DNA of 64,000 nucleotides, taken from assembly GCA_027487845.1 (NCBI GenBank), contig JAIYCV010000008.1, forward strand, positions 62,001-126,000. The letters are read 5' to 3'. This stretch comes from Flammeovirgaceae bacterium (GTDB lineage Bacteria > Bacteroidota > Bacteroidia > Cytophagales > Cyclobacteriaceae). Positions 735 through 50,077 of this stretch are shown here, one piece after another (position 1 is the stretch's first letter; the number at the start of each line of letters is the position of its first letter). The notes under the pieces were generated by a model. That model ran no database searches, was not told where the DNA came from, and saw only the letters and a list, made by a program, of their open reading frames with translations. Made by a program: the position numbers and the translations under genes.

Positions 735-783
735 TAGGTCTTACGTCTTGATACTTACGTCTTATGTCTAAATACTTACGTCT
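735..783. repeat. Seven-unit heptamer array between MOSC and deacetylase genes
   Basis: On the + strand the stretch divides exactly into seven 7-mers: TAGGTCT, TACGTCT, TGATACT, TACGTCT, TATGTCT, AAATACT, TACGTCT. Three are identical and all end in CT. The array starts inside the stop codon of the MOSC gene (minus strand) and runs towards the deacetylase start. It adjoins a 12-bp palindrome (CTAACTAGTTAG, 726-737). The opposite arm seen at other loci is poorly formed here. It belongs with the arrays in the leu operon and before lipA. Confidence 0.75.
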
Positions 784-1255
784 ACTTCAAAACCACCACT
801 GCATCATTTTGTTTTAAGATTCCGCTTTTGATGACTTTTGCTGTAATCCCACCATGGCCACGCATAGCATTGTAACCTCCAGTGCCAAGTGCTTCTTCCA
901 TTCGCGAACACGGATGGCATTCGCCAGAATATTCAAAGACGGCCTCCCCGATGGCAAACCGGTTGCCCTTTAAAGCAAGTAAGTTGATTCCTGAAATTAA
1001 AATGTTGCGCCTTGTAAGTGTGAAGTCAAGCAGTTGTTTTCCCAGATAAGAGGCTATTGCCAAGATATGTTCGTGCTGGATAAAAGTAACCTGCCGATTT
1101 CCGCCTTTGCTCCGGTCGCCATTCAGTCCTTTGTTTACTATCGCCTCTACTTCGGTTAGCAAGCTTGCTGGTTTTACCCTGTCTGGTCTCACGGAAATAG
1201 ATATCACTGTTCCATTTTGCGAATAGAACTCAACTAGCTGTTTTATTTCCATCAT
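782..1255 (-). CDS. MOSC domain-containing protein
   Basis: The 157-residue protein is essentially a single MOSC domain, the sulfur-carrier fold found at the C-terminus of molybdenum-cofactor sulfurases and in YiiM/YuaD-type proteins. Visible signatures are GLNGDRSKGGNRQVTF (about 43-58), TRRNILISGINLL (81-93), the conserved Cys113 and Cys116 in GECHPCSRM, and RGHGGI (132-137). Stand-alone MOSC proteins are linked to molybdenum cofactor-dependent reduction or sulfur transfer; no moco gene is near, so the partner is unknown. The start could be the first or second Met. The stop codon lies inside the heptamer array that separates it from the deacetylase gene. Confidence 0.93.
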   Translation of the reverse strand: MMEIKQLVEFYSQNGTVISISVRPDRVKPASLLTEVEAIVNKGLNGDRSKGGNRQVTFIQHEHILAIASYLGKQLLDFTLTRRNILISGINLLALKGNRFAIGEAVFEYSGECHPCSRMEEALGTGGYNAMRGHGGITAKVIKSGILKQNDAVVVLK

Positions 1256-1311
1256 TTTTTTACACTTTTTCGTATTTCATCTTAATTTTAATCACAAATT
1301 AGAAACTCAGA

Positions 1312-2637
1312 ATGATAAGAACCTTACTGCTGCTGTTATTTTTATACGCCTTTCAATCTAATGCCCAGTTGAAGGCGTTGGTTGGGGGTACTTTGATCGA
1401 TGGGTTTGGAGGAAAACCGATTTTGAATTCGGTTATCGTCATTGATAGCGAAAGAATTAAAACGGTGGGTCAGCAAGGCCAAGTGGTAATACCCGCAGCT
1501 GCCGAAATCATTAGCACAGAAGGCATGACCATTATACCCGGCCTCTGGGATATGCATGTTCACTTATACATAAACGGGCATAGTGATTATCTGCATTGGG
1601 ATAAGAAATACCTGAAATCAGCGAAGGATATTATTATGCCTGCCTCGGCACACCAGTTGTTAATGGCTGGAATAACAAGTGCGCGGGATCTTGGCGGGCC
1701 GCTAGAAGCAAGTATTTCGGTACGGGATAGGATCAATAAGGGTGAATTGCCAGGCCCAACCATGTATATGGCTGGGCCCTTTATTCAGCATGCTCCGTAT
1801 CCAGGCACCGAGGCATTTCGGTGGGGTGTAAATGGCGTTGCAGATGCGAAAAGCAAAATACAACAATTAGTAAAAGCGGGAGTTAATGTGATAAAATTAA
1901 TTGATCAGGATGAAATGACGCAAGAAGAAGTTCAAGCGGTGGTAGACGAAGCCCATAAAAATAAATTGAAAGTAGTTGGGCATTCGCACAGGCCCGAGGA
2001 AATTCGAAGGGGTCTTAAAGCTGGAGTTGATTGCTTTGAGCATACCGGGTTGGCTGCCGCGCCTGAATATCCTGATGATATTATGGCTATGATTAAAGAG
2101 CGCACGGCTAAGATGAATTTAGGCCCGCTTTTTTGGACTCCCACGGTGGAAGGGCTGTACAATTTTGAATCCGTAAGGGATAATCCGGAGCATCTCGACA
2201 ACAACTCGTGGCATCTTGATTTACCAGATTCAATCATCCAAGACATTAAAAAATCGATTTCAAAACCCGGCCAATTGAGTTATTTCCAATTGAACCCGAT
2301 AAGAAAACCAACATTAGAAAGGAAAGTAAAGCAACTAAAAGAAGCCGGTGTCGTATTGTTGGTTGGCACCGATAGCGGAATACCCATGAAGTTTCACAGT
2401 CAAAGTACCTGGAATGAATTGGATGTTTGGGTAAACAAGTTGGGGTTCGATCCCATGTATACCATTAGGGCTGCTACTTATTGGCCGTCAGTCGCGATGG
2501 GGGTAGATAAGGATTTTGGAACTATAACTGAGGGGAAATTTGCCGATATTGTCGCGGTGAAAGGCGACCTGTTGAGGCATATCAACCTTCTTCAACGCGT
2601 AGATATTGTTATTAAAAAAGGCAAAAGATATAAATAA
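1312..2637 (+). CDS. Secreted amidohydrolase family protein (imidazolonepropionase-like)
   Basis: A 441-residue metal-dependent hydrolase with an N-terminal signal peptide (hydrophobic residues 4-17, SNAQ cleavage region). The amidohydrolase metal centre can be followed: HxH at His82/His84 (WDMHVHLY), Lys195 in NVIKLID as candidate carbamylated or bridging Lys, His224 or His226 (VVGHSH), His244 (CFEHTG) and Asp354 (VGTDSG). Relatives are periplasmic dipeptidases/prolidases or imidazolonepropionase-like enzymes; the substrate is unknown. It lies 32 bp upstream of the M16 peptidase on the same strand, which fits a co-transcribed pair for peptide breakdown in the envelope. Confidence 0.9.
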   Translation: MIRTLLLLLFLYAFQSNAQLKALVGGTLIDGFGGKPILNSVIVIDSERIKTVGQQGQVVIPAAAEIISTEGMTIIPGLWDMHVHLYINGHSDYLHWDKKYLKSAKDIIMPASAHQLLMAGITSARDLGGPLEASISVRDRINKGELPGPTMYMAGPFIQHAPYPGTEAFRWGVNGVADAKSKIQQLVKAGVNVIKLIDQDEMTQEEVQAVVDEAHKNKLKVVGHSHRPEEIRRGLKAGVDCFEHTGLAAAPEYPDDIMAMIKERTAKMNLGPLFWTPTVEGLYNFESVRDNPEHLDNNSWHLDLPDSIIQDIKKSISKPGQLSYFQLNPIRKPTLERKVKQLKEAGVVLLVGTDSGIPMKFHSQSTWNELDVWVNKLGFDPMYTIRAATYWPSVAMGVDKDFGTITEGKFADIVAVKGDLLRHINLLQRVDIVIKKGKRYK

Positions 2638-2669
2638 GAGACACAATTCGATTAAAAACAGCAACTATT

Positions 2670-5651: not shown

Positions 5652-6663
5652 ATTTTTTCCGAAGACGCACATGATCGGCCGTCATCTTCTCATAACTATG
5701 GGAAGGTGTTGTGAATTTGTTTTTGATGAAGATGATCTTGTTTATTCCTGAAAGTATAAGGTCTTTCAAGGGTTCTGATTCCAAACCGTTATAGGATGCT
5801 ATTTCCTTTCCGAGATAGTACCTTATTTGTGCTTCGATTACATCTGCTTGATGTTTGGGTAGAATTTCCCTGAAATAATTCATGAGTTCGGTGGTGAGTT
5901 CCACGCCTTCATTTGTTTTTCGGAAGTTTCTTTCTTTGATGATTTGGGTTAATAGTTGAGCTTCAGCAAACGAAGCCGGAAGTAGTTTTTCATCGATGTT
6001 CAATTGGTAGCCGATGTATCGCCATGTGAAAAGAAAGTCGTACTTTTCTTCATGTGAAATTCGGTAACCAGACTGTTGCATGCCCACCAAAATAATATAG
6101 GAGAAAGCCAAATTTGTTCCTGCCATATCCTCTTGGTTGATAGGCACGCCCCACTCATCATTCCAAACTGCTTTAAGATGATACCGAGCAATACTGTGTA
6201 TGAGCCTCGTTTTATTGATATGAATTTGGCCATCCTTTCCTTGCTCCAGACTGCCAGGAGTTAATGCATTAATAACGAAAGCGGCTGTTTCAATCAATCG
6301 TTTTCCGGTTGATTGCCTCATCTTTTCGGATAGGTACAAGGCCCTGTTTCCTGGCGAGGCCGCATAGCAGTAAGGCAATGACATAACACCTAACAGCGTC
6401 ATCATCTCTTGGGCGTACTTTTTGAAAACAAACTGCCCCTTCAATAGTCTTGTTTCATCATACCAAGAAGGCATTGGCCTCCATGAGAGTAGAAATTTTG
6501 TTAAGTCAGTTTCTTCTTGAGCACTAATTTCTGTCCCCCTCATCTTAAGAAGAGTGTAGATACTATTTTGTTTACCAGACTGGAATGCATTTTCAATCAA
6601 TGGATCAATTTCTTTATCCCCGGTGAATCGTTGTTGATCTAGAAAAATTTTATTTGTATTCAT
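5641..6663 (-). CDS. Oxygenase MpaB family protein (DUF2236)
   Basis: A 340-residue protein of the DUF2236/MpaB family, which includes the b-type haem latex-clearing protein Lcp and fungal MpaB. Recognisable segments are SPGNRALYLSEKM (about 103-115), the helix TRLIHSIARYHL (about 152-163), whose His156 is the likely haem ligand with flanking Arg residues, and GVPINQEDMAGTNLAFSY (172-189). There is no signal peptide, so it is predicted cytoplasmic or peripheral. The natural substrate is not predictable. It converges on the M16 gene with an 11-bp overlap at the 3' ends and has a 163-bp AT-rich upstream gap with no clear element. Confidence 0.87.
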   Translation of the reverse strand: MNTNKIFLDQQRFTGDKEIDPLIENAFQSGKQNSIYTLLKMRGTEISAQEETDLTKFLLSWRPMPSWYDETRLLKGQFVFKKYAQEMMTLLGVMSLPYCYAASPGNRALYLSEKMRQSTGKRLIETAAFVINALTPGSLEQGKDGQIHINKTRLIHSIARYHLKAVWNDEWGVPINQEDMAGTNLAFSYIILVGMQQSGYRISHEEKYDFLFTWRYIGYQLNIDEKLLPASFAEAQLLTQIIKERNFRKTNEGVELTTELMNYFREILPKHQADVIEAQIRYYLGKEIASYNGLESEPLKDLILSGINKIIFIKNKFTTPSHSYEKMTADHVRLRKKFIG

Positions 6664-6826
6664 TTACTAATAGCAGCTTATTAATGGAAATTACGTAAAA
6701 TTGTTTTAGTAGCATCGAATAATTTTGTGGAGATTATCTCTACTTGCAACCTGCTTAATGTAGAAGCTTAAGATCGTAGTTATAAGTTGGTTTCATGACA
6801 TGAATTTTTAAACGAACGCTTTTTCT

Positions 6827-7354: not shown

Positions 7355-7371
7355 ATTGCTCTTCCGATCAT

Positions 7372-7473: not shown

Positions 7474-7497
7474 TTTGGCGATTTGGATAATTAAAAC

Positions 7498-10158: not shown

Positions 10159-10254
10159 AACTGATGAGACCGATTCATTTCGTAATTCCTTTAACTTTTA
10201 GCATAGCACCAGATAATGCTGCTGTAGGCCACCACTTAGTATTGAAACTTCAAT

Positions 10255-10473: not shown

Positions 10474-10520
10474 TCTTTTTTATAGTGGTTATGCACTGTT
10501 AGAAATTTTGGTTACAGATT

Positions 10521-11931: not shown

Positions 11932-11942
11932 TGTATTAAACT

Positions 11943-25400: not shown

Positions 25401-25472
25401 AGTCTCGTGGTCGAGTTGGATAGGCAGAGCTCTGCAAAAGCTCCTACAGCGGTTCGAATCCGCTCGAGACGT
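25401..25472 (+). tRNA. tRNA-Cys (GCA anticodon)
   Basis: The stretch folds as a cloverleaf. The acceptor is AGTCTCG with CGAGACG. The anticodon stem GAGCT/AGCTC encloses the loop CTGCAAA (anticodon GCA), and the T arm is AGCGG-TTCGAAT-CCGCT. The discriminator is T, the identity base of tRNA-Cys, and the 3' CCA is not encoded. Base pair 1-72 is A-G, a mismatch, and the D stem is short and has one mismatch. It begins 9 bp after the dioxygenase stop codon, so it may be processed out of the same transcript. Confidence 0.88.
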
Positions 25473-27448: not shown

Positions 27449-28861
27449 GTGAGTGATCAAAAACCAAAGGCAATTTTTGAAAAGATATGGGATAGCCATG
27501 TAGTAAAACGAGCAGATGGGTATCCAGATGCTTTGTTTATCGACAGGCATTTTATTCATGAAGTAACAAGCCCACAAGCATTCGATGGATTGAAGAAACG
27601 AGGAATCAAAGTTTTTAATACCAGCAGAACATCGGCTACAGCTGATCACAATGTTCCCACCAAAGATCAACACCTTCCTATAAAAGAAGCATTGTCGCGC
27701 CATCAGGTAGAAACGCTCAGAAAAAATTGCGCTGAATTTGGCGTAGAATTGTATGATCTCGGTCATCCGTACCAAGGCATTGTCCATATCATTGGGCCGG
27801 AGTTGGGGCTAACATTGCCGGGAATGACAATAGTATGTGGAGATAGTCACACCAGTACGCATGGAGCTTTCGGAAATATTGCTTTCGGAATTGGCACCAG
27901 CGAAGTTGAACAAGTGTTAGCCACACAATGCATTCTTCAATACAAGCCTAAAACCATGAAGATTGAAATCAATGGTAAATTGGCCAAAGGTGTTTTAAGC
28001 AAAGACATTATTCTCTATGTGATCTCAAAGATTTCAGCAAGCGGGGCAACGGGTTATTTTGTTGAGTATGCGGGCGATACAATAACCAATCTGTCCATGG
28101 AGGCACGCATGACTATTTGTAACATGAGTATTGAAATGGGTGCGCGTGGCGGATTGATTGCACCTGATGAAACAACTTTCAATTATATAAAAGGAAGAAA
28201 GTTTGCTCCGCAAGGTGAAGCATTTGATAAGAAGGTGGCTGAATGGAAGAAATTAGTTACCGATGAAGGTGCAGTTTACGACCATGTATTGAGGATCAAA
28301 GCGGAGGATATTGGCCCCATGATTACCTACGGTACAAATCCGGGGATGGGTATGGTTATCAATGATCGAATACCAACCGTAGCCGAACTGAAAGAAATTA
28401 ACGAGCAAGCCTCGTTTTCGAAATCGCTTGATTACATGGGGTTGGAACCAGGTTCGCAGCTATTGGGAAAGGCAATAGATTACGTGTTTATCGGTAGCTG
28501 CACAAATGCACGTATAGAAGACTTGCGGTTGGTAGCCGAAATAGTGAGGGGCAAGAAGAAGGCCGAGGGAGTTGAGGTGTGGGTAGTGCCAGGCTCTAAG
28601 CAAGTAGAAGTGCAAGCAAAGGCAGAAGGGCTCGATAAAATTTTTGAAGCCGCAGGCTTTGAGTTGCGCAGTCCAGGATGCTCAGCTTGCTTAGGCATGA
28701 ATGAAGACAAAGTGCCAGCGGGTAAGTATTGCATCTCTACTTCCAATAGAAATTTCGAAGGAAGACAAGGGCCCAAGTCAAGAACATTTTTGGCTAGTCC
28801 ATTGAGTGCAGCCGCAGCGGCAATCACAGGTAGGGTTACAGACGTGCGAGAATTAGTTTAA
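27449..28861 (+). CDS. leuC: 3-isopropylmalate dehydratase large subunit
   Basis: A 470-residue aconitase-family subunit that isomerises 2-isopropylmalate to 3-isopropylmalate with LeuD. The [4Fe-4S] ligands are visible: Cys in [14 protein letters not shown] and the pair in [13 protein letters not shown]. Other family blocks are [17 protein letters not shown] and the N-terminal IWDSHVV. The start is GTG, encoding SDQKPK next. First gene of leuC-leuD-leuB-leuA; the gap to leuD (71 bp) is filled by a heptamer hairpin. Confidence 0.98.
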
Positions 28862-28864
28862 TAA

Positions 28865-28925
28865 TCGTTGGTCGTTGTTGGTTAATCGTTGATCGAACAA
28901 CCACTAACGAGCAACTAACAACGAT
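28865..28925. repeat. Heptamer hairpin element in the leuC-leuD gap
   Basis: Left arm: TCGTTGG, TCGTTGT, TGGTTAA, TCGTTGA, then TCG. Right arm: ACAACCA, CTAACGA, GCAACTA, ACAACGA, T. The right arm is the reverse complement of the same unit (TnGTTrn), so four units face four units around a centre near 28895. The invariant GTT and T positions pair; the variable second and seventh positions mostly do not. It occupies almost the whole gap, from 3 bp after the leuC stop to 7 bp before the leuD start. Confidence 0.88.
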
Positions 28926-28932
28926 GCAATAA

Positions 28933-29517
28933 ATGAAAGAAAAATTCACAACATTAAAATCCACTGCAGTACCGCTTCCTGTGGAAAATATTGATACTGA
29001 TCAAATAATCCCCGCAAGGTTTTTGAAGGCCACTACGCGCGAAGGCTTTGGTGACAATCTTTTTAGGGACTGGAGGTATGACGCCAACAACAAGCCCACT
29101 AAAGAATTTGTCTTAAACCAACCAAACTACTCGGGCAAGATTTTAATTGGAGGAAAAAACTTTGGATGTGGTAGCAGCCGCGAGCATGCTGCTTGGGCGC
29201 TATACGATTATGGTTTTCGGGTAGTGGTCTCCAGTTTTTTTGCAGATATCTTTAAGAACAACGCCCTAAATAACGGTTTGCTCCCGTTGGTGGTTTCAGA
29301 TGATTTTTTGAAAAAGTTATTCGAAGCAATTGCGGCAAATCCTGCTACGGAAGTAGTGGTTGATTTAGAGCAGCAGACTGTTTCCTTAAACGGGATGAGC
29401 GAGCATTTTGAAATCAATACGTACAAGAAAACCTGTATGATCAATGGCTACGATGATATCGATTATCTGTTGAGTTTGAATGATGAAATAAGGCAGTTTG
29501 ATTTAGCGCATAGTTAA
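28933..29517 (+). CDS. leuD: 3-isopropylmalate dehydratase small subunit
   Basis: A 194-residue swivel-domain subunit of isopropylmalate isomerase, of normal length. Signatures are [16 protein letters not shown] (about 17-32) and [17 protein letters not shown] (about 75-91), the loop that closes the active site formed with LeuC. The ATG at 28933 follows the heptamer element by 7 bp. Its stop codon lies directly against the next heptamer element (29518). Confidence 0.98.
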
Positions 29518-29579
29518 TCGTTATTCGTTGCTGGTTGTTCGTTAGTCGCGTTCAACCTGCAACGATCAACCAGCAACGA
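29518..29579. repeat. Heptamer hairpin element in the leuD-leuB gap
   Basis: Left arm: TCGTTAT, TCGTTGC, TGGTTGT, TCGTTAG, TCG. Right arm: TCAACCT, GCAACGA, TCAACCA, GCAACGA. Four units face four, as in the leuC-leuD gap, with the same core (TnGTTrn and its complement) but a different series of variable bases. So it is not a copy of that element. It starts on the base after the leuD stop and ends 6 bp before the leuB ATG. Confidence 0.88.
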
Positions 29580-29585
29580 AATAGA

Positions 29586-30689
29586 ATGAAGAAAAAAATA
29601 GTAATACTGCCGGGAGACGGAATAGGAAAAGAAGTAACAACAGAAGGCAAGCGTGTGCTTGAAACAATTGCATCACTCTTCGGCCATGAGTTTGAATATG
29701 ATGAAGCAGTTATTGGACATGATGCCATAGAAGCCACTGGCAATCCTTTGCCTGATGAAACGTTAGCTAAACTAAGAAACTGTGATGCGATTCTTTTTGG
29801 TGCAGTTGGCCATCCAACGTACGACAACGATCCTTCCTTAAAAGTAAGACCAGAACAAGGCTTGCTAAAAATGAGAAAGGAACTTGGCTTGTACGCTAAC
29901 CTTCGCCCGATAAAATTATTTGATGAATTGCTTCAAGCTTCTGCTATCAAACCGGAAATACTAAAAGGTTCTGACATTCTTTTCTTCCGCGAACTTACTG
30001 GTGACGTTTACTTCGGTGAGAAAGGTAGGAAAGATGATGGCAACACCGCGTATGATGTCATGATCTATCAACGTTATGAGGTGGAACGCATCGCCCACAA
30101 AGCATTTCTGGCAGCAAGAACAAGAAAGAAAAAAATTACTTCTGTTGACAAGGCAAATGTGCTTGAAAGCTCGCGCTTGTGGAGGGCGGTGGTTCAAGAA
30201 ATAGGCAAACAATATCCCGATGTAGAGTTAGAGCATCAGTTTGTTGATTCAGCGGCCATGAAGCTGATTCAGAACCCAAGGAGTTTTGATGTGGTACTAA
30301 CTGGCAATTTGTTTGGCGATATTCTCACGGACGAAGCTTCTCAAATTGCCGGATCAATGGGCATGCTTGCATCCGCTTCTGTTGGTGATACAGTTGGGCT
30401 GTACGAACCCATCCACGGAAGTGCCCACGATATTACTGGTAAAGGAATTGCCAACCCGCTAGCGTCCATTTTGTCTGCCTCTTTGTTACTCGATATTTCT
30501 TTTGGCTTGAAGAAAGAAAGCGAAGCAATTATAAAGGCGGTGGAATCTACACTTAAAGCGGGGTATCGCACAGGCGATATTGCCGATGCCAATTCAGAAA
30601 AATCAAAAATATTGAATACGCAGGCAATGGGCGACCAAATAGTGAAGCAATTGATAGCCAACAACGAACAACGATCAACCAACAACTAG
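29586..30689 (+). CDS. leuB: 3-isopropylmalate dehydrogenase
   Basis: A 367-residue NAD-dependent beta-decarboxylating dehydrogenase that makes 2-oxoisocaproate. Starting at MKKKIVILPGDGIGKEV (29586), it shows the substrate Arg segments (LGLYANLRPIK, FFRELTGDVYFG), the NAD/metal site TGNLFGDILTDEASQIAGS and the adenine-binding GSAHDITGKGIANPLA. An upstream frame extension would be made of heptamer repeat and is rejected. The last residues (about NNEQRSTNN) are encoded by another heptamer array (30661-30688), so the C-terminus appears extended or replaced by repeat sequence. Confidence 0.97.
   Translation: MKKKIVILPGDGIGKEVTTEGKRVLETIASLFGHEFEYDEAVIGHDAIEATGNPLPDETLAKLRNCDAILFGAVGHPTYDNDPSLKVRPEQGLLKMRKELGLYANLRPIKLFDELLQASAIKPEILKGSDILFFRELTGDVYFGEKGRKDDGNTAYDVMIYQRYEVERIAHKAFLAARTRKKKITSVDKANVLESSRLWRAVVQEIGKQYPDVELEHQFVDSAAMKLIQNPRSFDVVLTGNLFGDILTDEASQIAGSMGMLASASVGDTVGLYEPIHGSAHDITGKGIANPLASILSASLLLDISFGLKKESEAIIKAVESTLKAGYRTGDIADANSEKSKILNTQAMGDQIVKQLIANNEQRSTNN
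30661..30688. repeat. Heptamer half-element at the leuB-leuA junction
   Basis: Four units, ACAACGA, ACAACGA, TCAACCA and ACAACTA, match the right-arm unit of the two elements upstream (nCAACnA). No left arm is present. The array is coding for the end of LeuB and supplies its stop codon (TAG, 30687-30689). leuA starts 4 bp later. It is the third array in three consecutive leu gaps. Confidence 0.85.
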
Positions 30690-30693
30690 TACT

Positions 30694-31854
30694 ATGAGCA
30701 ACAAAATTCAAATCTTTGACACAACGCTCCGTGATGGTGAGCAAGTACCAGGCTGTCAGTTAAGGACGGAAGAAAAGGTAATTATTGCTAAAGAACTGGA
30801 AGCATTGGGCGTTGATGTGATTGAAGCTGGTTTCCCAATTTCAAGTCCCGGTGATTTTCTTTCTGTGGTTGAATTGTCGAAAGCAATTAAAGGTGCTACA
30901 ATTTGTGCACTCACACGCTCAAAGAAGGAAGATATTGATGTTGCGGCTGAAGCACTTCATCACGCGAAGAATGGGCGAATACACACTGGAATTGGCTCCT
31001 CAGACGTTCACATTAAACATAAATTTAAGTCAAGCCGCGAACAAGTGTTAGAGCAAGGCGTTTGGGCTGTGAAGTATGCAAAGGCAAAAGGATACGAAGT
31101 AGAATTCTTTGCTGAAGATGCTGGTCGTGCCGACCTTGCTTTCTTAGCCCAATTGACCGAGGCAGTAATTGCAGCAGGTGCAGATGTAGTGAATATTCCT
31201 GATACGACTGGCTATTGCTTGCCTCACCTTTACGGAAAACGCATTGAATACCTATTTGAACACGTAAGCAATATTCACAACGCAATTATATCGGTTCATT
31301 GCCATAACGATCTTGGCTTGGCAACTGCTAATACCATTGCCGGCCTTGTTGGTGGCGCACGCCAAGCAGAGGTTACAATCAATGGAATAGGAGAGAGAGC
31401 AGGCAACACTTCGTTGGAAGAAGTGGCCATGATATTACAAGTGCATAAAGACCTCGACCTACATACTAATATAAAATCAGAACGTTTATACGACATCAGT
31501 AAGTTAGTTGCCGAGATGATGCGCATGCCCGTGCAAGCGAACAAAGCGATTATAGGTGCCAATGCATTCGCGCATTCGTCAGGCATTCATCAAGATGGTT
31601 TTTTGAAACATGCCGAGAATTATGAAATCATCAACCCTTCTGATGTGGGTGTTCCTTCTTCATCCATCGTACTGACGGCTCGCAGCGGTCGGGCAGCATT
31701 AAAACACCGGGTGGAGTTATTGGGATACAAAGTGGAAGGCCAGGAGCTAAATACACTTTATGAAAATTTCTTGGTTCTTGCCGATGAGAAAAAGCAGTTG
31801 GAGAATGATGACCTTGAATACCTGGTCGCAAATACGCTTGTGATGGCGAAGTAG
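30694..31854 (+). CDS. leuA: 2-isopropylmalate synthase, short form without regulatory domain
   Basis: A 386-residue HMGL-type synthase that condenses acetyl-CoA with 2-oxoisovalerate, the first committed step to leucine. The catalytic start is IFDTTLRDGEQVPGCQL. The metal-binding HxH is in SVHCHNDLGLATAN, with the neighbouring GIGERAGNTSLEEV, and the subdomain has NAFAHSSGIHQDG. The C-terminal LeuA dimer domain, which binds leucine in the usual 500-520-residue enzyme, is absent, so classical feedback inhibition is not expected. The SGIHQDG sequence is typical of both LeuA and homocitrate synthases; the operon fixes it as LeuA. It ends one base before the end of the convergent T9SS gene. Confidence 0.95.
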   Translation: MSNKIQIFDTTLRDGEQVPGCQLRTEEKVIIAKELEALGVDVIEAGFPISSPGDFLSVVELSKAIKGATICALTRSKKEDIDVAAEALHHAKNGRIHTGIGSSDVHIKHKFKSSREQVLEQGVWAVKYAKAKGYEVEFFAEDAGRADLAFLAQLTEAVIAAGADVVNIPDTTGYCLPHLYGKRIEYLFEHVSNIHNAIISVHCHNDLGLATANTIAGLVGGARQAEVTINGIGERAGNTSLEEVAMILQVHKDLDLHTNIKSERLYDISKLVAEMMRMPVQANKAIIGANAFAHSSGIHQDGFLKHAENYEIINPSDVGVPSSSIVLTARSGRAALKHRVELLGYKVEGQELNTLYENFLVLADEKKQLENDDLEYLVANTLVMAK

Positions 31855-39394: not shown

Positions 39395-41665
39395 ATGTCA
39401 ATTAAGATAAGAAAGCAAGATGCACTTGATTACCATACGCAAGGGCAGCCAGGCAAGATTGAAGTAGTGCCCACCAAGCAGCTAAGCACGCAAATTGATT
39501 TGGCTTTGGCATATTCTCCTGGGGTAGCCGAACCTTGCAAAGAGATAGCCGCCAATAAAGAAGATGTTTATAAATACACAGCCAAAGGGAACTTGGTGGC
39601 TGTGATTTCGAATGGCACGGCTGTGCTGGGGCTGGGTAACATTGGCCCTGAAGCCTCTAAGCCAGTAATGGAAGGCAAGGGAGTATTGTTTAAAAAATTT
39701 GCCGGCATAGACGTTTTTGATATCGAGATTGATCAGGAAGACCCCGATGAATTTATAAAAATTGTTAAGGCGTTAGAGCCAACTTTTGGCGGGGTTAATC
39801 TAGAAGATATTAAGGCACCTGAGTGTTTTAAAATTGAAACTGAGTTGCGTGATAAGATGAATATTCCCATTATGCATGACGATCAGCATGGAACGGCCAT
39901 CATCTCCAGTGCCGCACTTTTAAATGCGCTAGAACTTGTTGGAAAAAAAATTGAGAACACAAAAATGGTAATGAATGGAGCTGGTGCCGCAGCTATTTCA
40001 TGTTCTCGATTATACATTGCGCTGGGGCTAAAGCAAGAAAACTTAATCATGTGCGATAGCAAAGGCGTGATCAAAAAAGGAAGGCCCGATTTAGATGACA
40101 CCAAGAGAGAATTTGCTACCAGCCATAATGTTTCCACGCTACAAGAGGCAATAGTGAGTGCAGATGTTTTTGTGGGGTTATCAAAAGCAGACGTGCTTGT
40201 TCCAGCGGACATCATGGCAATGGCAAAAGATCCCATCGTTTTCGCGTTGGCAAACCCAAATCCAGAAATCGCCTATGACGTTGCCAAGAGAACACGGCCT
40301 GATTTAATAATGGCTACTGGGCGATCAGATCACCCTAATCAAGTTAACAATGTGTTGGGCTTTCCTTACATTTTCAGAGGAGCACTGGACGTAAGGGCAA
40401 CCGAAATAAATGAAGCAATGAAATTGGCGGCTGTGAAAGCATTGGCAGAGCTCGCCAAAGAAGCAGTGCCGGATACAGTAGCCAAAGCATATGAAGTAAA
40501 CAAAATTGAATTTGGTAGGGAGTACCTTATACCCAAGCCCTTAGATCCGCGATTGATAACCACCGTTTCGCCAGCGGTTGCAAAGGCAGCGATGGATTCA
40601 GGCATCGCGAAAAACCATATTAAAGATTGGGGGCAATATCATAAGGATTTATTAAAACGAATCGGCATCGATGAGAAGCTCACCTCAAGATTGATAGAAC
40701 AAGCAAAACAAAGTCCTAAAAGAGTTGTGTTTGCCGAGGCCGATAACATTAAATTGTTGAAGGCAATCCAGGTTATTCAGGATGAAGAAATAGCGAAGCC
40801 GATTTTATTAGGCAGCAGGAAGGAAATTGAAAGATTGATTGCCGAGTTTAACCTTGAGCTAAACGAGTGTAAAATTGTAGACCCCTCGGAGGAAGTGGAG
40901 CTTTGCAAAAAATTTACGCAAGCCTACTACATGAAGCGACAGCGGAAGGGTGTAACTCAAGCCGATGCCGAGAAGATGATGCAAGATAGAAATGCCTTTG
41001 GTGCGATGATGGTTGAATTTGGTGAAGCCGATGCATTGATATCAGGTTTAACGCGCGATTATTCCAAAACCATTCTTCCCTCATTACAAATTATAGGCCT
41101 TGCACCAGGAGTAAAAAAGGTAGCGGGTATGTATATTATCCTAAGTAAAAAAGGTAACTTTTTTGTGGGTGATTGCACCGTCAATGTTAATCCAACGGCT
41201 GAAGAACTAGTGGGTATTATTGGGCTTGTCTCTCGCGGAGCGAGGGTCTTTGATACAGAGCCTCGTGTGGCCGTGTTGTCGTATTCAAATTTTGGTTCCA
41301 GTAACGGAGAAATTCCAGCTAAAACGAGAGAGGCAGTTCGTTTGGCAAAAGAAAAATATCCTTCACTTATTATTGAAGGAGATATACAAGCCAATGTTGC
41401 CTTGGATGTGGAACTTCAGCGGGAAATTTACCCGTTTAGTTCGTTGGCCAAAGAAGGCGCTAATACATTAATCTTTCCTAACCTTGAATCGGGAAATATT
41501 GCATATAAATTGTTAATGGAAATTGGAGGGGCAGAAGCAATTGGCCCTATTTTATTGGGCATGAAAAAGCCAGTTCATATATTACAATTGGGTAGTTCAA
41601 TTCGTGAGATTGTAAGTATGACTGCGATAGCCGTTGTAGATGCACAATTGAGAATTGATTCGTGA
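39395..41665 (+). CDS. maeB: NADP-dependent malic enzyme, fused to phosphotransacetylase-like domain
   Basis: A 756-residue fusion of the MaeB type. The malic domain (about 1-420) has the Tyr/Lys region [20 protein letters not shown] (with [10 protein letters not shown] after it), the metal-binding [12 protein letters not shown] and the NAD(P)-binding [20 protein letters not shown]. The C-terminal part (about 430-756) is a phosphate acetyltransferase-like domain ([16 protein letters not shown], then [16 protein letters not shown]), usually catalytically inactive and regulatory, binding acetyl-CoA. It converts malate to pyruvate and CO2 and supplies NADPH. The 3' side has an octamer array before ruvA. 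Confidence 0.95.
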
Positions 41666-41802
41666 TTTGATGATGCGGTGATTTAAAAATGATGTTTTGC
41701 TCAAACGTTAATTGACGATCTTACTTTGTTTTCAAATCGGCTTATTTTCAAATCTTCAAATTAATTGACACATTACCGAAGTAACCAATTATCGAATTAA
41801 AA
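41662..41802. repeat. Octamer array between malic enzyme gene and ruvA
   Basis: The left arm starts inside the malic enzyme stop region: GTGATTTG, ATGATGCG, GTGATTTA, AAAATGAT. The right arm, 41731-41802, is nine 8-mers in register: TTCAAATC, GGCTTATT, TTCAAATC, TTCAAATT, AATTGACA, CATTACCG, AAGTAACC, AATTATCG, AATTAAAA. The GATTTG of the left arm pairs with CAAATC of the right. It resembles the heptamer elements but has a period of eight. It ends 2 bp before the ruvA ATG. Confidence 0.75.
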
Positions 41803-41803
41803 A

Positions 41804-42394: not shown

Positions 42395-42401
42395 CATACG
42401 T

Positions 42402-45400: not shown

Positions 45401-48400
45401 GGCCAACGTGGAATACATTGAATTTTGGTTGATGGACCCTTTTATAAATTCTGCCAATGGGAGAATCTTAGATGGAAATCCTAATCCCCAATCAAACCAG
45501 TCGGGAGGTAAATTGATTTTTCAATTGGGCAGTATTTCGGAAGATTTAATGCGCGATGGCAAGCATGCGTTTGAAAACGGCCTTCCTGCCGATGGCGACT
45601 TGACGAAACTAGGCCCTCCAAAAGCTTGGGGCTATGTTACTTCTCAGCAGTATTTGAACAATGCGTTTGATAACTTAAGCGAGTCTCGCAGAAATCAAGA
45701 TGTGGGTTTGGACGGAATCGGCAACACAAAGGAATCTGATTATTTTAAAGATTTCATTAACGCGGTACCGTCTAACTCTGCCAAAGAAATAGTAAGGCAA
45801 GATCCCAGTGCTGACGACTTTAAGTATTTCTTAGGCGATGACTTAGATGCTAAAGATGCGAAAGTACTAGAGCGTTACAAGAATATTAATGGACTTGAAA
45901 ACAACACGCCAATTCCTAATGCTGGAGATGCTTTTGCGAGGTCCGGCACTACTATTCCAGATAATGAAGATTTGAACCAAGATAACACCTTGAGCGACTT
46001 GGAGGAGTATTACAGTTACAACATCGACTTGTTGCCTGCTGGGCCTAAAAAATTGGATGTTGGAAATCGCTTTGTGGTAGATAAAATAGTGAATTCGGTC
46101 TCTGGCGATCCAGTTACTTGGTATTTATTTAGAATCCCAATCAAGCAATTTGACGACCAAGTAGGTGCAATCAACGGTTTTAAATCGATACGATATGCCC
46201 GTATGTTACTAACGGGATTTACGCAGCCCGTAGTATTGCGTATGGCAAATTTTAGAACGGTAGGCAATCGGTGGAGGCAATACACATCCAATCTACAAGA
46301 GCCCGGCCTCACCAAACCGCCTGAGCCCAACCTGGATAACTTTTCTATTTCTGTAGTGAACGTAGAAGAAAATTCAAAAGGCAATGATATTAAGCCGCCA
46401 TATGTGCCAGCGTTAGCGCGCGATCGTGATAATACCTCCACCATTGTAAGAAGACTTAATGAACAATCCGTTCAAATGTGTGTGAAAGACCTAGCCGATG
46501 GTGATGCCCGAGCCATTTATAAGAACGTGAGCATGGATTTTTATAATTATGGCAGAATAAAAATGTTTGTAAGTGCCAATAGCAGTGGGCTAAAAGACAA
46601 TGAACTTACTGCCTTTATGCGATTTGGTACAGACTTTGACCAAAATTACTATGAAGTGGAGATACCACTAAAAATTACACCGAATGGCGAAACCGTGCCA
46701 GACGATGAGATTTGGCCAGAGCAAAATCAATTTGACATTGATCTCAACGACCTATACGCGTTAAAAGCTAAACGCGATAGGGAAGGGGCATCACTTAACT
46801 CGTTGTACCCGCTGAATGGGCCTCAGCAAAGTGGAAAACATGGGTTACGGATTTTTGGTAGGCCTGACCTCAGCGGTGTGAGACTCATTATGATAGGTGT
46901 TCGCAATCCTAAAAGCACCGATACAAAGCCACTGAGTGTTTGTATTTGGGCAAACGAACTTCGGCTAACGGACTTTGACCGGCAAGCAGGCTGGGCCGCA
47001 AATGCAGTGCTAAACGCTAAGTTGGCCGACCTAGGAAATATTACTGCTTCCATCAGACATAGCACGCCTGGGTATGGAAATGTACAGTCTAAAATTTCTG
47101 AACGTACGAGGGCGGAAGCTACCACCTTCGATATCTCTGGCACTATCAACATCGACAAGCTATTGCCTCCAAAGCTTGGGCTTAAAATACCCATGTTTGC
47201 GAGTTACGAAAGCATCATTAGCAATCCCAATTTTGACCCCGCCAATCCTGACTTGCGTATAAAGGCGGCACTTGCTTCATTCAACACAGATGAAGAGCGA
47301 TCGGGTTATCTAAAAATAATTCAGGACAAAACCATTAGGCGAAGTTTAAATTTTACCAACGTGAAGAAGGTAAAGCTAGACCCAAAGGCCAAAAGTCATA
47401 TTTACGATGTGGAGAATTTCGCTTTCAGTTATGCATACAGTTCGTCCGAACAAACGAATTTTAACTTGAGCGAGAATACTAGACGCGGGTATAAGGGCTC
47501 GGTCGCTTGGCAGTATTCTTCTTCCTTCAAAGGAATTGAGCCATTCAAAAATGCAAAATGGCTTTCTTCACCATTTCTCCAACTGATAAAGGATTTCAAT
47601 TTTAATCCTGTCCCCATGTCCATTTCCGTAAGGGGAGATCTGGATCGTGCGTTTAGCAAAATAGTAAATCGCAACAGCAGCACCGATGCGTTGAACTCAC
47701 AACCCAACTTTTCTAAATACTTTATCTTCAATAGGTCATATAATGTGCGATGGGCACTTACCAAATCAATTTCGTTGGATTACAGTTCGCGCGTTAACGC
47801 CATTATTGATGAACCAGATGGAGATCTCGACACGCAGAAAAAGCGCGATTCGGTGATCAACAACTTAAAACGCTTCGGACGAATGAAGGCTTTTGATCAA
47901 AACATAACAGCAAACTACATGTTGCCGCTCGATAAACTGCCCTTGACCAATTGGTTGGGAGCCGACTACCGGCACAACGTTGGCTACTCGTGGAGGGCTG
48001 GGCCGCTTGAAAAGATTGATAGTTTGAAACTAGGAAACATCATCCAAAATACGCGCGATCAAGCCGTGAACGGAAAAATAGACTTAATAAAGCTCTACAA
48101 CAAAGTGGGCTTTTTAAAGGAAATCAACAATCCTAAGCCAAAACCAACCGCAGCTGAACTTGCTAAGAATAAATCCAACAGACCAGATACCATTAAACGC
48201 CCTCCTGAACTTTCAGGAATAAAAAGTCTTCTTCGTTTAGTAATGACAGTTCGCAGTGTAACTGGAACATATTCTGTGACTTCTGGAACATCTTTACCCG
48301 GATTCATGCCGTCACCCTATCTGGTTGGAAACAGCAAAGGATGGCAAGCACCCGGTTGGGATTTTATTTTAGGTGGCCAAGATGCAGATATCCGCTTTAA

Positions 48401-49577
48401 AGCTGCTGAAAACGGATGGCTTTCTAATAGTAAGAAGCTTACCACTCCTTTCACGCAAAATCAGACTAAAGATTTAAGTTTAAAAACGACCCTTGAGCCT
48501 TTTCCCGACTTTAAAATCCAGTTGGATGCCAGAAAGACCTCCACCTCCGCATTTCAAGAAATCTTCAGAGACTTAACAGGCAATGGGGATTATGCGGGGT
48601 TAAGCCCCAGCAGAACGGGTTCGTACAAAATTTCAATAGCCACATTTGCTACCGCATTTGCAAACAATAGCAGTTTAACTTCTACTGTTTACGAGGAGTT
48701 TAAAAACAACATTCAAGTAATAAAAGAACGGTTTAGGAATGCCACTAACCAAGGCTACGAAGACCAATCGCAAGATGTTCTGATTCCAGCCTTTATTGCT
48801 GCCTACTCGGGTAAGTCAGCTGGGAAAATCAGTTTGTCTCCGTTTCCAAGTATTCCAATACCTAATTGGCGTCTAGATTATGCTGGCCTATCAAAAATTC
48901 CCGCATTAAAAGAAATTTTTCAAACAGTTTCGCTTAATCACGCCTACAATTCATCTTACTCTGTTTTAAACTTTTCAAATTCACTGCAATACAGCGATGT
49001 ACCAATTTCAAATCCTGTCGAAGACTATAATGTCCGCACTTTTGGCGGGTTACGAAATTCAAGTGGAGTTTTAGTGCCTGTCTACGTCATTCAGAATGTG
49101 ATTATTTCGGAACAATTTGCTCCATTGATAGGCATCAATGTGTTGACAAAAAGCAAAGTGTCGATGAAGTTTGAGTATAAAACCAAGCGCGATTTGTCAT
49201 TGAATGTGTCAAACGCACAAATCACCGAAATGCTGGGTACTGATTGGTCTTTTGATTTGGGGTTTACCAAAAATAACATGCGGCTGCCATTTAAGGAGAA
49301 CGGGAGAACTATTACGTTGAAAAATGACGTTACCTTTAAACTTACCATGAGCCTTCAGGATACACGCACTATTCTGCGAAAGCTGGAGGGTGAAAGTGCC
49401 ATTACAAACGGCAACGTAAATTTTCAGTTGAGGCCAAATGTTAGCTATATCGCCAACAAAAAATTGACCGTTCAAGGTTATTTCGATTACAATACAAACG
49501 AACCGCTGGTAAGTAATTCGTTTCCGAGAGCTACTACGCGGGCTGGATTTAAAATCTTGTATAATCTTGCCCAATAG
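42402..49577 (+). CDS. sprA: Cell surface protein SprA, type IX secretion translocon
   Basis: A 2391-residue outer-membrane barrel protein, of the size expected for SprA, the large pore of the type IX secretion system. The start is TTG at 42402; the signal peptide FIVVFGIFLMMCCHYSFAQ follows. Recognised SprA segments are SPLLDRIFGGSFVEIIPRG (about 149-167), VATNFDNNNSFDFQN, the C-terminal repeat region LGADYRHNVGYSWRAGPLE and LGTDWSFDLGFTKNNMRLP, and the terminal strand ATTRAGFKILYNLAQ. It needs partners such as Plug and PorV that are not in the window. ruvA ends 7 bp upstream. Confidence 0.95.
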   Translation: MTITNFRNQFIVVFGIFLMMCCHYSFAQKQPKKDTTKLAPADSARRPTFRLRDRYGDPFSNFTSYSPLFLKDPKSLNLDVQIDTGMNYSIYEKIGKINFRPTSSMSFKEFSLQQDRVNMKEYWKNRSQALDGESAVSGRNLLPKIYVSPLLDRIFGGSFVEIIPRGNVALDFGASFQTIKNPAIPIRQQSNGGFEFDQQINLSVTGKIGEKLKVATNFDNNNSFDFQNSMKIEYTGFKEDILRKLELGNVSLPLNNSLITGASNLFGVKAQMQFGKLSVTTVASTQRGKQTSIEIPGSTSGTSQGRQFEVIGSNYDDNRHFFLAQFFRDQFEGWLSTLPQITSGVNITRVEVYLLNRNNDTQTLRDVVGLMDMGESKRLYRKDAKDGQIPLANRDYIRPNFPASNEANNFFTKDAYLRRISAVSDEINAGLEGLGFVNGLDFEKITSARKLSATEFSYHKELGYITLQRKLQNDEALAVAFEYTYNGQAYKVGELTEDYSNKPDKEVVYLKLLRPRKVSVKDQFNKILPTWNLMMKNVYNLNLNQVAKEGFQLKIIYRDDATGKDNPQLQESGVAGTRQLISIAGLDKLNPYNDPLPNGDGNFDFVENVTINTTNGLVIFPFLEPFNKPFRDLFKTDPPNTDRLNNKYLYDTLYNTTKAEAELVATKNKFFIVGTSKSGSGKEISLQGFNVAQGSVKVFAGGTPLREGADYQVDYNLGKVTILNEGVLSSGKNISVTYEQQDPFAFQTRSLLGTRLDYKLSDDINIGSTLLYFNERPLISRNAIGTEPARNIQYGLDINLRKDSRLLTKMVDALPFLQTKEKSSITFNAEFAQLLPGTSNSINGDGTSFIDDFENTATPYSLINPASWKLSSVPSKEVRFDLTGGGADDIRAGYRRAKLAWYQIDNLFYRTGGAFKPTNISEKDLENHYIRPVLPKEIFPGQDVALGNFFQPIFDVAYFPKERGPYNFNPDLNPDGTLKNPEKNWAGITTAIRTEVDFDKANVEYIEFWLMDPFINSANGRILDGNPNPQSNQSGGKLIFQLGSISEDLMRDGKHAFENGLPADGDLTKLGPPKAWGYVTSQQYLNNAFDNLSESRRNQDVGLDGIGNTKESDYFKDFINAVPSNSAKEIVRQDPSADDFKYFLGDDLDAKDAKVLERYKNINGLENNTPIPNAGDAFARSGTTIPDNEDLNQDNTLSDLEEYYSYNIDLLPAGPKKLDVGNRFVVDKIVNSVSGDPVTWYLFRIPIKQFDDQVGAINGFKSIRYARMLLTGFTQPVVLRMANFRTVGNRWRQYTSNLQEPGLTKPPEPNLDNFSISVVNVEENSKGNDIKPPYVPALARDRDNTSTIVRRLNEQSVQMCVKDLADGDARAIYKNVSMDFYNYGRIKMFVSANSSGLKDNELTAFMRFGTDFDQNYYEVEIPLKITPNGETVPDDEIWPEQNQFDIDLNDLYALKAKRDREGASLNSLYPLNGPQQSGKHGLRIFGRPDLSGVRLIMIGVRNPKSTDTKPLSVCIWANELRLTDFDRQAGWAANAVLNAKLADLGNITASIRHSTPGYGNVQSKISERTRAEATTFDISGTINIDKLLPPKLGLKIPMFASYESIISNPNFDPANPDLRIKAALASFNTDEERSGYLKIIQDKTIRRSLNFTNVKKVKLDPKAKSHIYDVENFAFSYAYSSSEQTNFNLSENTRRGYKGSVAWQYSSSFKGIEPFKNAKWLSSPFLQLIKDFNFNPVPMSISVRGDLDRAFSKIVNRNSSTDALNSQPNFSKYFIFNRSYNVRWALTKSISLDYSSRVNAIIDEPDGDLDTQKKRDSVINNLKRFGRMKAFDQNITANYMLPLDKLPLTNWLGADYRHNVGYSWRAGPLEKIDSLKLGNIIQNTRDQAVNGKIDLIKLYNKVGFLKEINNPKPKPTAAELAKNKSNRPDTIKRPPELSGIKSLLRLVMTVRSVTGTYSVTSGTSLPGFMPSPYLVGNSKGWQAPGWDFILGGQDADIRFKAAENGWLSNSKKLTTPFTQNQTKDLSLKTTLEPFPDFKIQLDARKTSTSAFQEIFRDLTGNGDYAGLSPSRTGSYKISIATFATAFANNSSLTSTVYEEFKNNIQVIKERFRNATNQGYEDQSQDVLIPAFIAAYSGKSAGKISLSPFPSIPIPNWRLDYAGLSKIPALKEIFQTVSLNHAYNSSYSVLNFSNSLQYSDVPISNPVEDYNVRTFGGLRNSSGVLVPVYVIQNVIISEQFAPLIGINVLTKSKVSMKFEYKTKRDLSLNVSNAQITEMLGTDWSFDLGFTKNNMRLPFKENGRTITLKNDVTFKLTMSLQDTRTILRKLEGESAITNGNVNFQLRPNVSYIANKKLTVQGYFDYNTNEPLVSNSFPRATTRAGFKILYNLAQ

Positions 49578-49621
49578 TTTCTAACTTATAACTATTTTTG
49601 ATGCTTATTAATCAAAAAAAC

Positions 49622-49996
49622 ATGACAATTCCAGCAGAACTCCTGTACACAAAAGATCACGAATGGGTTAAAATTGATGGCAACATAGCGACCATCGGAA
49701 TTACTGATTTCGCGCAAAGCGAATTAGGTGATATTGTGTATGTAGATATTTCGTCTGTTGGAAAAGAACTGGCTGAACATGAGGTGTTTGGTACGGTAGA
49801 AGCGGTGAAAACGGTATCGGATTTGTTTATGCCAACGGCTGGAAAAATAGTTGAATTTAACAAGCAATTAGATACCGCGCCTGAAAAAGTGAACTCTGAC
49901 GCTTATGGCGATGGGTGGATGATAAAAGTTGAACTAAAGGGTACTGCCGCGGGTTTATTATCTGCTGATGAATATAAGGCTTTGATTGGAAAATAA
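49622..49996 (+). CDS. gcvH: Glycine cleavage system H protein
   Basis: A 124-residue protein with the lipoyl domain of GcvH. It starts MTIPAELLYTKDHEWVKIDG at 49622; the TTG-initiated frame extension at 49598 is unlikely. The lipoylated residue is Lys63 in FGTVEAVKTVSDLFMP. The protein carries aminomethyl groups between the P, T and L proteins of glycine cleavage; none of these is in the window. It lies directly upstream of lipA, which makes its lipoyl group, across a heptamer hairpin gap of 83 bp. Confidence 0.97.
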   Translation: MTIPAELLYTKDHEWVKIDGNIATIGITDFAQSELGDIVYVDISSVGKELAEHEVFGTVEAVKTVSDLFMPTAGKIVEFNKQLDTAPEKVNSDAYGDGWMIKVELKGTAAGLLSADEYKALIGK

Positions 49997-49998
49997 TC

Positions 49999-50077
49999 TG
50001 AGATATGAGTAGTGAGACTTGAGTAGTGAGAGCCACATCTCACAGCTCACATCTTACATCCCACATCTTACATCTCA
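49999..50077. repeat. Heptamer hairpin element in the gcvH-lipA gap
   Basis: Left arm, five units in register: TGAGATA, TGAGTAG, TGAGACT, TGAGTAG, TGAGAGC. Right arm after a 2-base spacer, six units: CATCTCA, CAGCTCA, CATCTTA, CATCCCA, CATCTTA, CATCTCA. The right arm is the approximate reverse complement of TGAG-type units. It starts 3 bp after the gcvH stop and ends 2 bp before the lipA ATG, so all of the usual ribosome-binding region lies in the repeat. Confidence 0.88.

Follow-up and report, generated by a model that had tools for sequence, protein, structure and literature searches.

Arrays of degenerate 7- and 8-base units between co-directional genes of Bacteroidota as candidate operon spacers

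Dispersed repeats with a heptad unit are known from several bacteria, among them Calothrix and Nostoc, whose heptanucleotide repeats we take to be the STRR elements. The available portion of Rehm et al. 2015 (PMC4692102) describes these as a dispersed heptad unit, with few inverted pairs in Nostoc, and reports in Xanthomonas the heptamers GGGAATC or (GGGANTN)n, with convergent arms: two genomes carry 186 and 183 arrays and 70 and 75 convergent pairs, 89–93% of the arrays are intergenic, mostly between same-direction genes and near or overlapping the upstream stop, and the majority are transcribed. Direct repeats of TAACTGA occur in Beggiatoaceae, Cyanobacteria and five Bacteroidetes, often directly upstream of start codons, according to the part of MacGregor 2015 (PMC4679880) available to us; Gramella and Aequorivita have long TAACTGA arrays next to other heptads, and close relatives are without them. 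This repeat is a single exact word, and words close to it seldom occur in repeated form; that text counts 169 sets of direct repeats and a single indirect one, so that converging arms are not the rule there. The same text credits Mrazek et al. 2007 with the finding that, in most genomes rich in longer simple repeats, heptanucleotides outnumber the other classes, mentions a proposed polymerase-linked slippage step, and raises the binding of heptads by cold-shock proteins. REP and GTAG-tagged palindromes are another dispersed intergenic class (PMC3733652, in part). Degenerate heptads with convergent arms, in Xanthomonas, and heptamer arrays in some Bacteroidetes are, on these partial sources (PMC4692102, PMC4679880), already known.

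The window, by which we mean the whole analysed stretch of 64,000 nucleotides from a Flammeovirgaceae genome, contains six sites that the initial annotation had described as gaps divided into in-register units, of seven bases at five sites and eight at one. The periods stand: against 1000 dinucleotide shuffles of each site, with any period from 5 to 12 allowed, period 7 is best at 735–783, 28865–28925, 29518–29579, 30661–30688 and 49999–50077 (reached by 0/1000 shuffles each) and period 8 at 41662–41802 (p = 0.003). So does the location against stop and start codons (Table 1). Two other statements need correction, as 30661–30688 is not a gap and lies within leuB (29586–30689), and clear arms, supposed to be present at most sites, are found at three of the six: an inverted repeat is reached by 0/100 shuffles at 28865, 29518 and 49999 only, the fractions elsewhere being 0.39 at 735, 0.20 at 41662 and 0.99 at 30661. 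The malic-enzyme-like/ruvA gap is the weakest of the six; its arms are not significant at the site itself, the entire gap 41666–41803 has an inverted-repeat z of 2.7, and GATTTG-like words follow the stop. Rfam covariance models at gathering score matched a tRNA at 25401–25472 and nothing else in the window, leaving the arrays unmatched, and a plasmid search with the leuC–leuB stretch returned leuD homologues only.

Table 1. Arrays and arms in the window, in window coordinates
Feature	Positions	Strand	Remarks
Single-arm array, seven heptads	735–783	-	Sense words e.g. ACGTAAG / AAGACGT; arms not significant; overlaps TAG stop of minus-strand gene 782–1255
leuC-leuD-leuB-leuA run	27449–31854	+	TCGTTGn/CAACGAn array at all three junctions, the third within the leuB end
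Left arm, TCGTTGn-type heptads	28865–28895	+	Starts 3 nt past leuC stop
Right arm, CAACGAn-type heptads	28896–28925	+	Precedes leuD start at 28933
Left arm, TCGTTRn-type heptads	29518–29548	+	Immediately past leuD stop
Right arm, CAACSAn-type heptads	29551–29579	+	Precedes leuB ATG at 29586
Single-arm CAACGAn-type array	30661–30688	+	Forms the 3' end of leuB, in frame; leuA ATG (30694) follows after 5 nt
Malic-enzyme-like gene / ruvA gap, period-8 words	41666–41803	+	TTTTCAAA / TTCAAATC at 41729–41777
Left arm, TGAGnnn heptads	49999–50033	+	2 nt past gcvH stop
Right arm, CACATCT/TACATCT-type heptads	50034–50077	+	2 nt ahead of lipA ATG (50080)

The core observation is confirmed well beyond the window, and the comparison with shuffled intergenic DNA, on which the initial annotation had staked the pattern, gives a large excess across this genome and at Bacteroidota loci. 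With gene borders called in both scans by simple ORF and codon-usage criteria, the predicted intergenic DNA within 864 kb of this genome holds 25 period-7 and 7 period-8 arrays, against 0.2 and 0.4 in shuffles (threshold T = 4), and no other period between 4 and 13 stands out in the three-lag scan. Eighty Bacteroidota loci hold 58 and 22, against 2 and 1 in a single shuffle set (T = 5), with period 4, a divisor of 8, additionally visible; a single-lag scan is clear at 7, 14 and 21 and not at 8. The E. coli K-12 control, a small sample of 50 kb and 30 gaps, has zero arrays at any period from 4 to 13. The idea that stop codons in all frames cause periods indivisible by three was dropped because TCGTTGn contains no stop.

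Genes on the two sides of an array usually run in the same direction. Co-directional gaps hold 86/95 arrays overall, 24/25 in this genome and 62/70 at the 80 Bacteroidota loci, with 66% of gap bases in either case (binomial p 5e-4 and 4e-5), and convergent gaps hold 4/95, against about 9 expected by their share of gap bases (small numbers). Arms begin a median of 3.5–6 bases past the stop and end 10.5–19 bases ahead of the start. A strong inverted repeat (z ≥ 3) is found in 33/86 of the arrays in co-directional gaps, to which the arm survey applies (86/95), that is, in 10/24 of this genome and 23/62 of the Bacteroidota set; arms are thus a property of between roughly one third and two fifths of the arrays, more than half have no strong arms, and single-armed arrays are many. 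When array gaps are set against other co-directional gaps of 25–300 bases, strong inverted repeats number 10/25 vs 8/253 in this genome (Fisher p 1e-7), 20/67 vs 39/444 in Bacteroidota (p 8e-6) and 7/16 vs 10/126 in the pair G008/G009 (p 6e-4). Across 37 arrays, a single register of pairing is preferred: the arms match at 84% as aligned, a figure inflated by construction because the arms were picked by that same alignment, at 59% when shifted by 7 or 14, and at 28% for other shifts.

The arms also have a polarity. The left arm, after the stop, is usually G-rich, and the right arm, ahead of the start codon, rich in A and poor in G; G exceeds C in the left arm of 32/37 two-armed arrays, cases that are not independent (four, for example, are from one genome, L114), and the 57 array-free inverted repeats divide into 30 with G>C, 22 with C>G and 5 equal. 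In predicted folding, 26% of the first 18 nt past the stop are unpaired in 35 two-armed gaps, against 48% in 208 plain gaps (a random draw of about a third), and the start region (-18 to +3) is about equally open in the two sets, at 47% and 51% (p 0.36). Classical Shine–Dalgarno signals are rare in Bacteroidota. The landing zone before the start has 10% G and 43% A in two-armed gaps, against 14% and 37% in plain ones, and is predicted to be no more open than in its own shuffles (p 0.30). As to selection on the RNA, the wobble test is mixed, with GU:AC mismatches of 34:15 in this genome and 32:39 across the Bacteroidota loci; the sense strand has the better fold in only 13/24 and 34/62 arrays, respectively, and pair-breaking substitutions number 93 vs 127 expected (29 overlapping pairs, simple null).

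Arms so close to stop and start in co-directional gaps, with a G-poor right arm adjoining the start, would suit a gate in which the left arm sequesters the downstream ribosome entry site until a ribosome completes the upstream gene and opens it, which would couple the two genes. We consider this unlikely, given that two-armed arrays and plain gaps hardly differ in the predicted openness of the landing zone, that arms occur between tRNA genes and that several congeners have so short a gap at the corresponding position that any insert there would adjoin both codons. The predicted folding likewise lends no support to static occlusion of the start codon.

Each site had been credited with its own core word, and this we can no longer uphold: TCGTTGn has 43 matches in this genome (at most one mismatch, overlaps counted, some apparently coding) against 16 for the control, and other array words likewise recur between loci. 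Several unrelated words coexist within one genome, and words of the GTTR kind come in genome dialects, with G fractions of 0.13 and 0.21 in two genomes and 0.66–0.83 in four, differences for which G+C, taken over a few kb from each genome, does not account. Dialects of this kind, together with invariant and variable unit positions, would be expected of binding arrays in which an RNA- or DNA-binding protein that reads repeats (S1, cold-shock, RRM or similar) places one protein on each heptad, and cold-shock binding has been raised for heptads (MacGregor 2015, PMC4679880, in part); with several unrelated words in one genome and different words at orthologous gaps, we find such arrays quite improbable.

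Recurrence of word families at many loci, patchily among congeners and with both filled and near-empty orthologous sites, could also point to mobile palindromes, scattered through the genome like REP/RAYT or MITE elements. REP-type palindromes are 20–40 bp long and associated with RAYT transposases, and an internal heptad period is not expected of them. Single arms are common here, and identical or near-identical cross-locus 21-mers were no commoner than in column-permuted arrays (five genomes, among the pattern-chosen matches listed); with no sign of block copying in this test, the earlier statement that the arrays are not copies of one mobile repeat is borne out. The Y1 transposase domain PF01797 was not found in 6/26 genomes, among them the array-bearing G003, G007, G010, G015 and G018; some of the six are incomplete (77% for G003 and 81% for G010), but G007 is 100% complete, and dependence of the arrays on this transposase is unsupported. 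A mobile origin is accordingly very unlikely in our judgement. Insertion of an array into lipB, whose coding loop bears CAACGAA heptads, is not supported, as the loop is as long as in this genome in 15/25 congeners (counted by eye) and the heptad-like DNA is in place in G004, G011 and this genome alike.

Comparison among relatives reveals both retention and turnover. In the best ortholog cases, the leuD–leuB gap is identical at 70/73 and 70/75 positions, against 77% and 49% at fourfold sites, and the leuC–leuD gap at 66/69, against 61%; the two leu gaps are equal in length between the sibling species G010 and G011. Conservation at these few loci is strong. Over 167 ortholog gap pairs, with or without arrays, mean identity is 51%, against 44% when shuffled, and most sites therefore turn over; in some orthologous gaps, the word is switched or the array is missing. 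The leuC–leuD junction has a gap of at most 5 bases or an overlap in 9 of the 18 congeners listed, and the array is therefore dispensable there; the listing covers loci with both flanking genes, matches of at least 40% identity and gaps of -20 to 260 bases, and the 355-base leuC–leuD gap of G008 thus falls outside. Stretches of G008 and G009 around two loci already known to contain arrays gave an excess identity over shuffle of 0.196 for 7 arrays vs 0.102 for 16 other co-directional gaps (p 0.089, not significant), superseding a smaller comparison with 69% in 6 arrays and 52% in 13 other co-directional gaps.

Such turnover would be natural if the arrays were a mutational by-product of replication or repair, created by slippage of 7–8 bases and template switching across short hairpins and persisting in operon gaps only because promoters and coding frames are less tolerant. 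The clear excess only at periods 7 and 8, the abundance of heptanucleotides and the polymerase-linked step proposed for them (Mrazek et al. 2007, as reported in the available part of PMC4679880), arrays that come and go with different words at orthologous gaps, the many single-armed arrays and the heptads in the lipB loop all agree with it. On the other hand, identity in three orthologous array pairs greatly exceeds that at fourfold sites, convergent gaps, where inserts should be well tolerated, are short of arrays, in small numbers, and neither the polarity nor the landing-zone composition would be expected. We hold a pure by-product to be not very likely, while giving it more weight than the gate, the binding arrays or the mobile palindromes.

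The reading that we prefer, tentatively and as possible rather than probable, is that the arrays are operon-spacer elements. A degenerate heptad or octad run would fill the space from one gene to the next co-directional one. Where there are two arms, the G-rich left arm of the RNA, a few bases past the stop, would pair unit by unit with part of the A/C-rich, G-poor right arm, giving a long imperfect stem between the cistrons. The last 10–20 bases ahead of the next start would stay largely free, A-rich and G-poor, as a landing zone for the ribosome; both this zone and the stem after the stop are features of predicted folding. By holding the untranslated gap in a folded state, the stem may guard it from nucleases, Rho or stray initiation and leave both cistrons separately readable. 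Pairing and composition, not one fixed sequence, would then matter, and the word could therefore change: new words would arise by slippage in 7–8 base steps and by copying, with the opposite arm or other arrays as the template, and useful arrays would be retained by purifying selection. Among the roles proposed by the initial annotation, the strongest support goes to RNA structure between operon genes, from the polarity, the pair-breaking deficit and the predicted folding, and we would still word it as a suggestion.

Several observations count against spacers. G007 and G021 have arms, recognised by eye and unscored, that flank a terminator-like hairpin between genes for tRNA-Gly and tRNA-Leu, where there is no translation; the G008/G009 arrays have no significant extra conservation; and the lack of strong arms in most arrays, the mixed wobble test, the turnover of most sites, the dispensability at leuC–leuD and a landing zone no more open than its shuffles weigh in the same direction. 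A broader proposal, that Bacteroidota keep a general class of operon spacers in genome-specific dialects of 7- or 8-base words, with a dedicated 7–8 base-step process (re)writing units across arms and loci so that the word is exchangeable and period, pairing and polarity are kept, strikes us as decidedly speculative and improbable.

Within one phylum, then, matched arms built of heptads are frequent in operon gaps, and sibling species display strong retention as well as whole-word replacement. Two questions become testable: the origin of the 7–8 base step and whether interchangeable hairpin spacers organise polycistronic mRNA. That no named family has this design, as first supposed, is partly wrong. 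As far as the available text of PMC4692102 goes, the Xanthomonas heptamers are, like our arrays, degenerate units joined head to tail, some of whose positions are conserved and others variable, and a substantial share of them likewise lies in convergent pairs. The TAACTGA repeats of PMC4679880 (in part) share the frequent position near starts; tandem TAACTGA (TAACTGATAACTGA) is absent from the window and from 303 loci. Calothrix and Nostoc repeats, as partially described to us, are alike in heptad unit and dispersal and differ in their words and cyanobacterial hosts, and REP/RAYT elements are alike as dispersed intergenic palindromes, whereas we found neither Y1 dependence nor block copying. 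From what the same partial sources report, one G-rich, quadruplex-forming word was studied in Xanthomonas, whereas several unrelated words without G-tracts occur in one genome here (TCGTTGn, TGAGnnn, TACGTCT, TTCAAATC and others, none of the form GGGANTN). Unlike the Xanthomonas heptamers in that account, some arrays have period 8, arms are fitted from stop to start, the word changes at orthologous gaps, and the arrays are spread across Bacteroidota.

The arrays of degenerate 7- and 8-base words are a real and abundant class of operon-gap elements, strongly conserved at some loci. A scan against shuffled intergenic DNA gave a large excess: in 864 kb of the source genome (51 contigs, 4.55 Mb; the window plus 40 stretches of 20 kb), a three-lag score run over predicted gaps at a threshold of 4 found 25 period-7 arrays where five shuffles averaged 0.2 and an equal length of coding DNA gave 0.7, and seven period-8 arrays where the corresponding figures were 0.4 and 0, with no clear excess at periods 4, 5, 6 or 9–13. 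In a single-lag scan of the genome, lags 7, 14 and 21 gave 10, 13 and 10 against 0.3 each, and lag 8 was not raised (1 against 0.3). Across 80 Bacteroidota loci of at most 20 kb, at a threshold of 5 and with one shuffle set, 58 arrays of period 7 and 22 of period 8 stood against 2 and 1; period 4 was raised too (13 against 0), as expected for a divisor of 8. Period-7 arrays occurred in 31 of these loci, the carriers including Chitinophaga, Niastella, Pedobacter, Mucilaginibacter, Sphingobacterium, Gramella, Spirosoma, Aquirufa and Bacteroidales MAGs; 50 kb of E. coli held none. With approximate gene borders, co-directional gaps, 66% of gap bases in both sets, hold 24 of the 25 own-genome arrays and 62 of 70 in the Bacteroidota set.

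Within the window, the fixed period that the initial annotation saw at six sites was upheld by 1000 dinucleotide shuffles of each, period 7 exceeding all of them at five sites. Converging arms, claimed for most sites, are clear at three of the six and fail at two single-armed ones, and one supposed intergenic gap is coding sequence (table). The array neighbours are leuC, leuD, leuB and leuA, a malic-enzyme-like gene with ruvA, and gcvH with lipA; a sprA gene is also present. Together with the nearest named loci of the 80, which are MAGs labelled Bacteroidetes, Cytophagales and Cyclobacteriaceae, it suggests that the source is a Cyclobacteriaceae-like member of the Bacteroidota. Judged from its sequence, LeuA (386 aa) seems to be missing the C-terminal regulatory domain, its match being confined to roughly the first 380 of the 494 positions of the leuA_bact model.

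Arrays, repeats and neighbouring features by position
Locus	Positions	Feature
Window	735-783	period 7; single-armed
Window	28865-28925	period 7; clear arms
Window	29518-29579	period 7; clear arms
Window	30661-30688	period 7; single-armed; coding 3' end of leuB
Window	30694-31854	LeuA
Window	41662-41802	period 8, p = 0.003
Window	49999-50077	period 7; clear arms
L177	20242-20313	period-8 array, convergent gap
L221	~125-215	single-arm CAACGAn array, CTCACGT-type array
L225	82-328	GGCCGAACARYG repeat
L226	29-80	GGCCGAACARYG repeat
L001	1613-1624	GGCCGAACARYG repeat
L250, L256 (congeners G007, G021)	tRNA-Gly ends 1488 / 1486; tRNA-Leu starts 1612	arms in tRNA gap

In line with the initial annotation, the arrays do not look like copies of one mobile repeat: over 89 TCGTTR loci of six genomes, with each variable column permuted within its genome, identical or near-identical 21-mers across loci were no commoner than after permutation in the five genomes tested. 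Y1 transposase occurrence does not follow array occurrence. Between neighbouring units the second base tends to change (G followed by C 29 times, by G five times). In the TCGTTR pattern, R is predominantly A in two genomes and predominantly G in four, and 9 of the 26 genomes in the genus lack the exact pattern. At one locus two words meet in one place, a CTCACGT-type heptad array closely following a CAACGAn one. This genome also has another, longer dispersed repeat, which carries GGCCGAACARYG in either orientation and lies close to single-arm TCGTTGn arrays. In lipB of congener G039 (L263, compared with L259), an in-frame 7-residue insert with palindrome-like CTGCCTACCGGACAGGCAG occupies the loop where others have CAACGAA heptads.

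Two-armed arrays start a median of 3.5–6 bases past the stop codon and finish 10.5–19 before the start codon. In all three data sets an array gap is several times as likely as another co-directional gap to carry a strong inverted repeat, but more than half of the arrays are without one. The arms match at 84% as aligned, a value inflated by construction as they were chosen by that same alignment, at 59% after a shift of one or two units and at 28% after any other; the drop on whole-unit shifts suggests unit-by-unit pairing, beyond mere word sharing. The left arm has more G than C in 32 of 37 two-armed arrays, which are non-independent, several having a word or genome in common. Because a palindrome reads identically on either strand, this polarity belongs to the words themselves, and it puts an A-rich, G-poor arm beside the start codon. 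The exceptions lie at L045, L177 (two), L191 and L195, all but the last resembling, by eye, ordinary inverted repeats adjoining an array; the tabulated array at L177 has a C-rich left and G-rich right arm, the reverse of most operon-gap arrays. Pair-breaking substitutions fall below expectation (93 against 127, over 29 overlapping pairs), which lends support, though not independently, and an RNA wobble test was mixed.

Tentatively, the arrays could be spacer hairpins, with a stem after the upstream stop codon and an open landing zone before the next start codon. In predicted folding, the post-stop region of 35 two-armed gaps is 26% unpaired, that of a sample of 208 plain gaps 48%; the landing zone is about equally open (47% against 51%), and in two-armed gaps not more so than in their own shuffles (p 0.30). 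Alternatively, the left arm would hide the downstream ribosome entry site until the upstream ribosome opens the stem. In two congeners, however, arms (by eye) also lie between tRNA-Gly and tRNA-Leu genes, flanking a terminator-like hairpin, which argues against such gating or any purely translational role, and we therefore rank it below the spacer reading.

At leuC-leuD, leuD-leuB and gcvH-lipA, congeners have same-word arrays, other-word arrays, plain hairpins or few-base gaps; the gcvH-lipA word is TGAGnnn in the window, TCGTTGn in G010 and G011, and TAGTCCn-like in G008, G009 and G020. Array gaps of G010 and G011 are identical at 70/73 and 66/69 positions, against 77% and 61% at fourfold sites of flanking genes, and one of G008 and G009 at 70/75 against 49%, these being the best of 167 gap pairs with or without arrays; over that whole set identity averages 51%, and shuffles give 44%. 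Orthologous gaps shared by G008 and G009 numbered 44, in stretches around leu and lip loci whose arrays were known beforehand, and nine of them have an array in one species or both (five in both, two in G008 only, two in G009 only). The seven comparable arrays are 68% identical and 16 other co-directional gaps 50%, the arrays' excess over shuffles not differing significantly from that of the other gaps (p 0.089; 7 vs 16); words differ at one shared site and apparently at a second. Some loci thus retain their arrays strongly, and others turn over fast.

The initial annotation knew of no named family with this design, which is nevertheless not unprecedented. MacGregor (2015, PMC4679880) describes TAACTGA heptads in Beggiatoaceae, Cyanobacteria and five Bacteroidetes, accompanied by other heptads in some genomes and missing in close relatives; that system uses a different word, tandem TAACTGA being absent from the window and from the 303 loci examined. 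For a multi-word, two-armed, word-switching form across Bacteroidota, we found no description in the open-licence literature searched, most subscription journals lying outside its scope. The Bacteroidota arrays are a variant of an already described heptad design: in Rehm et al. (2015, PMC4692102), degenerate heptads of Xanthomonas, including convergent pairs, are intergenic, lie mainly between same-direction genes near the upstream stop and have 83% positional conservation in a second species, and our arrays share with them the degenerate units, the convergent pairs, the same-direction gaps and the closeness to the upstream stop.
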